A stretch of DNA of 13,880 nt from assembly GCA_009784335.1 (NCBI GenBank), contig WRBX01000006.1, positions 1-13,880 on the forward strand. The letters run 5' to 3'. Each line of letters starts with the position of its first letter. Positions within the stretch are counted from its first letter, which is position 1. Origin of the DNA: Oscillospiraceae bacterium (GTDB taxonomy: Bacteria > Bacillota_A > Clostridia > Monoglobales > WRBX01). The notes under the pieces were generated by a model. The model saw only the letters and a list, made by a program, of their open reading frames with translations. It was not told where the DNA came from and made no database searches. This document shows positions 2,028 to 3,953 of the stretch, one piece after another. Made by a program: the position numbers and the translations under genes.

Positions 2028-3953
2028 TTAACTATCCAACTTAAGCACACTCATAAATGCCTCCTGCGGCACCTCAACGCTCCCCACCTGCCGCATGCGC
2101 TTCTTGCCCTCTTTCTGCTTCTCTAAGAGTTTCTTCTTCCGCGAAATATCCCCGCCATAGCACTTTGCAAGCACATCCTTGCGCATGGCGCGCACCGTCT
2201 CCCGTGCAATAATCTTGCTGCCAATCGCAGCCTGAATCGGCACCTCAAACATCTGCCTCGGTATCGCATCTTTCAATTTCTCGGCAATCTTGCGCCCGCG
2301 GGAATAAGCAGACGAAGTGTGCACAATAAAGGATAAAGCATCTACCACATCGCCATTGAGCAAAATATCCAGCTTCACCATCTGCGCCTTTTCATAGTGG
2401 GTAAGCTCATAATCAAATGAAGCATAGCCCTTGGTGCGCGATTTTAAGCTATCGAAAAAATCATAAACAATCTCGGTGAGCGGCAGATTATAGTAAATCG
2501 TCGTGCGCGTTGAATCGAGATACTCCATATTAATAAACCGCCCGCGCCGCTCCTGGCAAAGCTCCATCACATTGCCGGTGAAATCGGTCGGCACCATAAT
2601 CGTCGCCTTAACAATCGGCTCCTCGATAAAAGCAATCTCGCTCGGCGGCGGCAAATTCGCAGGGTTATCAACCTGAATCACTTCGCCGTTTGTACGATGC
2701 ACCTTGAAAATAACGCTGGGCGCCGTGGTGATTAAATCGAGATTATATTCGCGTTCCAGCCGCTCCTGAATAACCTCCATATGCAGCAGGCCCAGAAAAC
2801 CGCAGCGAAAACCAAATCCGAGCGCAATCGAAGTCTCCGGCTCATATTGCAGCGATGCATCGTTTAAGTGCAATTTCGCCAGCGCCTCGCGCAAATCATC
2901 GTATCTCGCGCCATCGGTGGGATAAATCCCCGAAAACACCATGGGATTCACCTTTTTATATCCCGGCAGCGGCTCAGCGAGTGGATTCTCAACTTTGGTC
3001 ACAGTATCGCCAACCTGCGTATCAGCCACATTTTTAATCGAAGCCGCGATATACCCAACCTCGCCGGGGCTCAACCTCGCGGCTTTCTTCATGCCATTCG
3101 GCAGCAAATGCCCAACTTCCACAACCTCAAATTCCTTATTTGTCGCCATAAATCGAATCTTATCCCCGCTTGACAGCTCGCCGTCAAAAATCCGAACATA
3201 TACAATAACGCCCTTATACGAATCATAAAAACTATCAAAAATCAGCGCAGAAAGCGGCTTATCCGCATCGCCCTTTGGCGGAGGAATCAGCTTCACCACC
3301 TGCTCCAGCACCGCCTCAATTCCAATGCCATTCTTAGCCGAAATCAGCGGCGCATCTGCGCAATCCAACCCGATTATATCCTCAACTTCGCGCTTCACCT
3401 CATCAGGCCGCGCCGCCGGCAAATCGATTTTATTGAGCACCGGCACAAGCTCTAAGTTATGCTCCAGCGCAAGATAAGTGTTCGCCAGTGTCTGCGCCTC
3501 AATCCCTTGCGACGCATCCACAATCAAAATCGCCCCCTCGCACGCCGCCAAGCTCCTGCTCACCTCATAATTAAAATCCACATGCCCCGGCGTATCAATC
3601 AGATTAAGGATGTATTCTTCTTGTAGGGGCGGCCATTGGCCGTCCGCCATGCAACCCGGCGAGGCTTTTGTTGACAGTTGACAGTCGGCAGTCGGCAGTA
3701 AATCACTGTCAACTGTCAACTGTCGGCTGTCGACTAACTTCTGCTCTCTGTTCGCACTCTTCTGATAACTAAGCCTAACCGCGCGTGCTTTTATAGTTAT
3801 CCCCCGCTCCTGCTCCAAATCCATATCATCCAGCAGCTGCTTCTTCATATCCCGCTTCTCAACGCTCCCCGTAAGCTCCAAAATCCTATCAGCAAGCGTG
3901 CTCTTGCCATGGTCAATATGCGCAATAATGCAAAAATTCCGTATGTTTTTCAT
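2028..3953 (-). CDS. lepA: elongation factor 4 (LepA), with in-frame repeat insertion
   Basis: Ribosome-associated GTPase EF4, which acts on paused or mistranslocated ribosomes. All GTPase motifs are present: A-H-I-D-H-G-K-S-T (11-19), R-G-I-T-I-K (50-55), D-T-P-G-H (120-124), N-K-I-D (174-177) and S-A-K (205-207). The C-terminus Q-E-A-F-M-S-V-L-K-L is typical. At 641 residues it is about 40 longer than the family's usual 600. The excess lies at residues 65-112, between the R-L-S-Y strand after switch I and E-Y-I-L-N-L-I-D-T-P-G-H, where relatives have about 7 residues. The DNA there is two repeat elements (copy E and a 7-bp heptad repeat), in frame and without stops. The start is the only one that keeps the conserved N-terminus; its SD, GAAGGAG (3992-3986), lies 32 bases away with a hairpin between. 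The frame is otherwise intact, so the protein is probably made. Confidence 0.97.
   Translation of the reverse strand: MKNIRNFCIIAHIDHGKSTLADRILELTGSVEKRDMKKQLLDDMDLEQERGITIKARAVRLSYQKSANREQKLVDSRQLTVDSDLLPTADCQLSTKASPGCMADGQWPPLQEEYILNLIDTPGHVDFNYEVSRSLAACEGAILIVDASQGIEAQTLANTYLALEHNLELVPVLNKIDLPAARPDEVKREVEDIIGLDCADAPLISAKNGIGIEAVLEQVVKLIPPPKGDADKPLSALIFDSFYDSYKGVIVYVRIFDGELSSGDKIRFMATNKEFEVVEVGHLLPNGMKKAARLSPGEVGYIAASIKNVADTQVGDTVTKVENPLAEPLPGYKKVNPMVFSGIYPTDGARYDDLREALAKLHLNDASLQYEPETSIALGFGFRCGFLGLLHMEVIQERLEREYNLDLITTAPSVIFKVHRTNGEVIQVDNPANLPPPSEIAFIEEPIVKATIMVPTDFTGNVMELCQERRGRFINMEYLDSTRTTIYYNLPLTEIVYDFFDSLKSRTKGYASFDYELTHYEKAQMVKLDILLNGDVVDALSFIVHTSSAYSRGRKIAEKLKDAIPRQMFEVPIQAAIGSKIIARETVRAMRKDVLAKCYGGDISRKKKLLEKQKEGKKRMRQVGSVEVPQEAFMSVLKLDS
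3623..3650 (+). repeat. GTAGGGG palindromic element, copy E, inside lepA
   Basis: GTAGGGG followed by stem GGGCGGCC / GGCCGTCC around ATT, with no ACTTCGAAG tail. It is read antisense within lepA and encodes part of the extra segment (about residues 102-111, around M-A-D-G-Q-W-P-P-L). Confidence 0.85.
3671..3733. repeat. heptad-unit inverted repeat inside lepA
   Basis: Nine consecutive 7-base units: TTGACAG twice, TCGGCAG twice, a central TAAATCA, then CTGTCAA twice, CTGTCGG and CTGTCGA. The right half is roughly the reverse complement of the left, so the unit folds into a long hairpin. Its 63 bases are 21 codons, so lepA stays in frame; on the coding strand it gives residues such as V-D-S-R-Q-L-T-V-D-S. 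Confidence 0.9.

Follow-up and report, generated by a model that had tools for sequence, protein, structure and literature searches.

How does the gene for a conserved ribosomal GTPase come to carry repeat DNA, in frame, beside its switch regions? The question is raised by lepA in the window, the whole stretch of 13,880 nucleotides analysed here. A reading of the sequence alone had found the GTPase domain of LepA to contain two repeat elements in frame, and this was borne out by the open reading frame, the protein alignment, the hairpin fold and the REP criteria described below. The features concerned are these:

2028..3953, minus strand: lepA (elongation factor 4), insert-bearing, 641 amino acids (open reading frame; TIGR01393; Pfam GTP_EFTU and LepA_C)
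3621..3764, minus strand: inserted or replaced stretch, residues 64-111, 48 amino acids versus 5 in empty sites (alignment of nine LepA proteins; loop lengths)
3582..3596, minus strand: G3 motif DTPGH, residues 120-124, intact, immediately after strand beta3 (open reading frame, alignment, predicted structure)
3670..3734, minus strand: hairpin of 7-base repeats, units approximately GRCAGTY in both arms on the coding strand (fold; period-7 rows at 3670-3735; inverted repeat I23)
3623..3645, plus strand: GTAG-class REP, antisense to lepA, with GTAG at 3623-3626, a stem of 3627-3634 with 3638-3645 (one G-T pair) and loop ATT (sequence; plus-strand fold; family D4)

The product belongs to the LepA (EF4) family: it scored 992 bits against TIGR01393 (cut-off 533.9), contains LepA_C (PF06421) and aligns in its GTPase motifs, which are intact, as had been claimed. 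The alignment of nine LepA proteins placed the insert after switch I and strand beta2 and before strand beta3 and DTPGH; RAVRLSY ends at residue 63 and EEYILNLIDTPGH starts at residue 112. Empty sites hold five residues of the KAKDG type, and with 64 residues between the motifs versus 21 in its kin, the window protein has a net gain of 43. The bounds first given (residues 65-112, 3618-3761) were correct to within one codon, and the replaced loop does lie between switch I and DTPGH, but it is five residues long and not about seven. On the coding strand, the 144 bases consist of a spacer, a hairpin of 65 bases (63 had been claimed), a short link and an antisense GTAGGGG copy. They contain no stop codon in the lepA frame, again as claimed, and two of the six frames are open over 3618-3761; LTVDSDLLPTADCQLSTK is an example of the peptide encoded.

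AlphaFold, given 68 of 231 LepA proteins as input, returned a model with a mean pLDDT of 72.7, the top structural matches of which were LepA entries, including ribosome complexes. Strands were predicted on either side of the insert (residues 59-64 and 113-118), and residues 67-110 had pLDDT below 50, with blocks of 24 to 30; stretches near switch I and switch II (31-56 and 122-128) were likewise below 50. The insert is thus predicted to be a disordered, exposed loop at the far end of the beta2-beta3 (interswitch) hairpin, in line with the earlier suggestion of a loop tolerated on the protein surface. That suggestion had called lepA an essential-type gene, which overstates the case, as E. coli can do without LepA.

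The hairpin exceeds what chance would give. Its arms carry GACAGTT, GACAGCC and related units on one side and their complements on the other, and its folding energy is -33.1 kcal/mol (z -6.0), which none of 200 shuffles equalled; the top hairpin within lepA scored 15, with at most 9.5 across 12 shuffles. The REP folded on the plus strand gave z -2.3 (5 of 200 shuffles as good), while on the coding strand it did not stand out from shuffles (z -0.3; 68 of 200 as good). Its GTAG (3623-3626) is unpaired and outside the stem in the plus-strand fold, and the stem has 8 bp with one G-T pair and a loop of 3. Members of the class have an unpaired GTAG or GYAG at one end of the palindrome, and the limits in Table 1 of PMC3733652 are a stem of 5-13 bp and a loop of 2-20. 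Copies are dispersed within the window, where 15 exact GTAGGGG motifs were found on both strands of the 13.9 kb, with stems that vary and are in some cases not full. With its predicted fold, the GTAGGGG element of lepA fits the GTAG class of REPs.

Three further features in the window contain one or other type of element:

5227..5326, strand not assigned: second hairpin of 7-base repeats, intergenic, with another unit and stops in all six frames over 100 bases (hairpin scan, frame test)
5387..5408, plus strand: GTAG REP, 60 bases past the second hairpin (sequence)
11109..11138, plus strand: GTAG REP, its TAG serving as stop codon for rpsB (rpsB open reading frame 10349-11113, Ribosomal_S2, sequence)

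Both kinds of element are therefore found close together again at 5227-5410. In locus L122 of genome G329 (1257-1375), a 7-base-repeat hairpin is followed after 18 bases by a RAYT-like gene. The neighbourhood seen in lepA thus appears to recur, with a hairpin close to a GTAG REP in the window and close to a RAYT-like gene in L122. The hairpin scan gave seven rows at six distinct places, with thresholds that passed over the lepA hairpin itself; the latter resembles intergenic hairpins of G008 and G007, which have CAGTTCA and CAGTTAA among their units. Two hairpins first taken to be inside lepA (L085 and L088) in fact lie just downstream of it. Elsewhere the window has a HicA/HicB-like toxin-antitoxin pair (11173-11649) between rpsB and tsf, genes that are usually neighbours, and a run of three neighbouring proteins (302, 188 and 260 amino acids; 5550-7826) for which neither Pfam nor PADLOC gave a match at E 0.001; a 26-base repeat is common to the starts of the 302- and 260-residue proteins.

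We surveyed relatives for the empty site that the sequence-only reading had proposed to look for. Homologues were taken as the best 120 of 7995 scored proteins, and a second search with residues 50-130 of one of them, P0003, as the best 120 of 7998. Among the 231 distinct LepA proteins so listed, the loop was empty in 229 (217 by pattern, 12 by eye) and held an insert in two: P0001 (64 residues from motif to motif) and P0003 (56). P0001 is the cluster of the window's own LepA, differing from it at one residue (472) and comprising two member sequences. A scan of genome contigs for lepA, with the best 80 loci kept, brought the loci covered to 144, all of them empty (138 with 21 residues, 5 with 20 and 1 with 16); L081-L084 among them duplicate genomes that are in the count already, and there may be more such overlaps. 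Within the sampled class (391 genomes), G329 was the top-scoring genome by LepA, at 79%; in its order, lepA was matched at E 1e-240 in 45 of 51 genomes, every one of them empty. These counts exclude the case in which an unrelated insert of that length is present in every relative. G427, from the same order, is nearer to the window by tree path, and the loop of its LepA (L109) is five residues short, so that the site varies in length in both directions. Two proteins taken by their length as candidate carriers, P0002 (753 amino acids) and P0051 (622), had an empty loop and their extra length elsewhere. A query with the insert only (P0001 residues 62-116) gave two candidates and recovered only P0001 itself, and the best 120 proteins listed by the P0003 query included no third carrier.

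The insert is hence not unique to the window genome: a diverged version occurs in the sister species represented by P0003. The two proteins are 89% identical over 598 columns with the insert left out, and they were sisters (SH-aLRT 99) within a five-row set (98) that also included P0004, G329 and G427, all three empty, in a tree of 55 rows (15 of the 231 proteins and 40 loci; quick search, no bootstrap). The P0003 insert, SSQSSVVSSQGVNDKLTTDYRPPTTKKSLDCFGDKSPCND, occupies the same site, is shorter by 8 residues (24 bases) and agrees with that of the window at 11 of 40 aligned residues; both have the flank pattern T-K-x-S-x-x-C.

Known here from its protein, the P0003 insert appears to be built, like that of the window, of a hairpin followed by a REP. 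Its peptide back-fitted period-7 DNA at 0.913, against a null of 0.630 +- 0.044 (0 of 1000 shuffles), whereas 98 other windows of P0003 gave at most 67% and none reached the insert value. An identical lag-7 test on the window's insert gave 93%, and lags 5, 6, 8 and 9 gave 50 to 64%. The two periodic stretches of P0003 lie where hairpin arms would be expected; the palindrome test was weak by itself (3 of 200 shuffles reached the value for P0003, 9 of 200 for the window protein). Fitted by hand, with no null, the P0003 unit would be GTCRGTN on both arms, versus GRCAGTY in the window. Also by hand and with no null, its GDKSPCN would fit GGCGATAAATCGCCCTGCAAT, a GCAG-tagged palindrome read antisense. 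The REP stems would then differ, GGCC type in the window and GCGAT type in P0003.

Neither insert contains a stop or breaks the frame. Seven is not a multiple of three, so that a uniform 7-base array traverses all frames, and units containing TGA or TAG must give a stop somewhere unless varied. The main sign that the frame has been kept, as far as the two sequences can indicate, is that both are open despite the 24-base difference in length and the change of 29 of 40 residues. REPs are easily read through: nine of ten other copies tested in the window had four or five of six frames open, and the tenth had one. At full length, five of six other 7-base hairpins had no open frame (L086 had two of six), but in segments of 66 bases, as long as the lepA hairpin, five of six were open in one frame or more somewhere along their length; these comparison hairpins are longer than that of lepA and mostly richer in A+T. 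An argument for open-frame selection drawn from them was dropped, as five of six are open somewhere at 66 bases.

We consider it probable that lepA acquired a single composite, a 7-base-repeat hairpin with a GTAG-class REP, on one occasion, in an ancestor common to the window bacterium and the P0003 species, and that the composite landed at the end of the beta2-beta3 hairpin in the GTPase domain. There it would have stayed in frame, and its translation would give LepA a disordered loop at the surface, which the protein tolerates. Its sequence would later have drifted fast, with the reading frame still open and the 7-base pattern retained. A REP-associated transposase (RAYT) probably put the REP in place, and the hairpin could have lengthened or shrunk through slippage. 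One shared insertion is suggested because site, order of parts, flank pattern and sister position in the tree all agree. More tentatively, and with rather less than even chances, a mobile composite may have turned into an inherited, translated arm between the switches, in which the hairpin repeats of both arms change together while stops are barred.

Other origins would account for parts of these observations. Each lineage might have received its own hairpin and REP in a permissive loop; unlike hairpin units, the differing stem types, which are compatible also with two insertions at one hot spot, and the low agreement between insert residues speak for this, as does the report by Di Nocera et al. 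of recB REPs at about one site in two Xanthomonas species (PMC3733652). Against it, two different elements would have had to arrive in identical order with a common T-K-x-S-x-x-C flank in sister lineages, and with the loop empty in 229 of 231 proteins and at 144 of 144 loci listed, the survey indicates that it is no general hot spot; we regard independent insertion as unlikely. That either genome was misassembled or its gene is decaying is barely credible. Both sources are probably metagenomic, judging by their labels (ena and jgi), but the 641 codons are open with motifs intact, the P0001 cluster has two members, and an artefact is very unlikely because P0003, from the other source (jgi), has a diverged version at the same site.

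How the cell deals with the insert is a separate matter. Hairpin inserts that are bypassed in translation exist elsewhere, and the strong coding-strand hairpin (z -6.0) would suit removal by RNA splicing or ribosomal bypassing, giving LepA protein without the insert. Skipping, however, needs no open frame, yet the insert is stop-free and in frame in two diverged species, and an Rfam scan gave a single match at chance level (E 0.2, far under the gathering score); we give this route very little weight. The loop could instead have been recruited to alter LepA action, in ribosome binding or GTPase timing, given its place between both switches and its retention through about 11% protein-level divergence. 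Rapid drift, length change and low predicted order reveal no sequence constraint, and recruitment seems improbable; the insert is most likely tolerated and not adaptive. Under the preferred reading, a single tolerated insertion, the second carrier would date the event to before the split of the two lineages, and the insert shows how far a conserved ribosomal GTPase accepts repeat DNA beside its switches, offering a natural experiment on the evolution of palindromic repeats that are bound to stay translatable.

RAYT models matched in 23 of the 51 genomes in the order of G329, two of them above the curated cut-off. The RAYT-like gene of G329 itself (L122 1375-1917) scored under both curated cut-offs (62.4 versus 80 bits; 21.6 versus 23). 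Weak matches are not specific, because the model also matched 6 of 14 known control genomes, one above the cut-off. We observed an inverted REP pair inside the RAYT-like open reading frame in L156, L160, L161 (the same as L122 and L195), L162, L163 and L204, and perhaps in L159, where the first copy may precede the start codon. In L156 the pair is read as VGAIHESP and RAIRESP. Within each gene both copies match; one stem is common to L160, L162 and L163 and the others differ. In G423 (L116) the dispersed REPs and the intra-RAYT pair have an identical stem, and in G001 nearly so. Both REP orientations were present in 7 of 15 RAYT-like reading frames recognised by motif (35 loci). The first paper on RAYT genes describes them as flanked by two inverted REPs (PMC2817692), in contrast to the pair lying inside the reading frame in these loci; the literature searched, including passages of PMC6006769, contained no report of such an internal pair.

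Among known systems, Rickettsia palindromic elements (RPE) are likewise palindromic DNA found in frame within genes and tolerated on the protein. This parallel, drawn at the outset, serves as an analogy and not as a family assignment: RPE, which PMC3733652 cites as in-gene palindromes, work alike by description and belong to other bacteria, whereas the lepA element fits the GTAG REPs of that paper. In a paper on Rickettsia, the string 'Lepa' occurred only as the start of an author name. The TAACTGA repeats described by MacGregor (2015, PMC4679880) are also 7-base, and their reverse complement rotates to CAGTTAT, near the CAGTTGA-like lepA unit; they resemble that unit further in being readable in one orientation while giving stops in every frame in the other. 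They are, however, direct repeats, mostly just 5' of start codons and within open reading frames mostly near the ends, whereas lepA has inverted arms inside a domain with units of about GRCAGTY; the unit TAACTGA in direct repeats is not what the lepA hairpin contains.

The closest likeness is to the GTAG-class REPs described by Di Nocera et al. (2013, PMC3733652), which occur in frame inside conserved genes and in some species form intragenic clusters encoding 43-82 residues. The lepA element shares with them the unpaired GTAG end, the short stem with compensated variants and the in-frame position in a conserved gene, and the GTAG that supplies rpsB with its TAG stop in the window has counterparts there. 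The main text of that paper does not contain the terms lepA, elongation factor, Firmicutes, Clostridi or heptamer, and titles and abstract openings of the literature on LepA with repeats and on intragenic REPs in Clostridia reported neither a REP in LepA nor a REP united with a 7-base hairpin. Unlike the published elements, the lepA REP is joined to a hairpin of 7-base repeats, at an insert site common to two species. Intragenic GTAG REPs were already known; within the literature searched, a REP in LepA, and its union with a 7-base-repeat hairpin, appear to be new.
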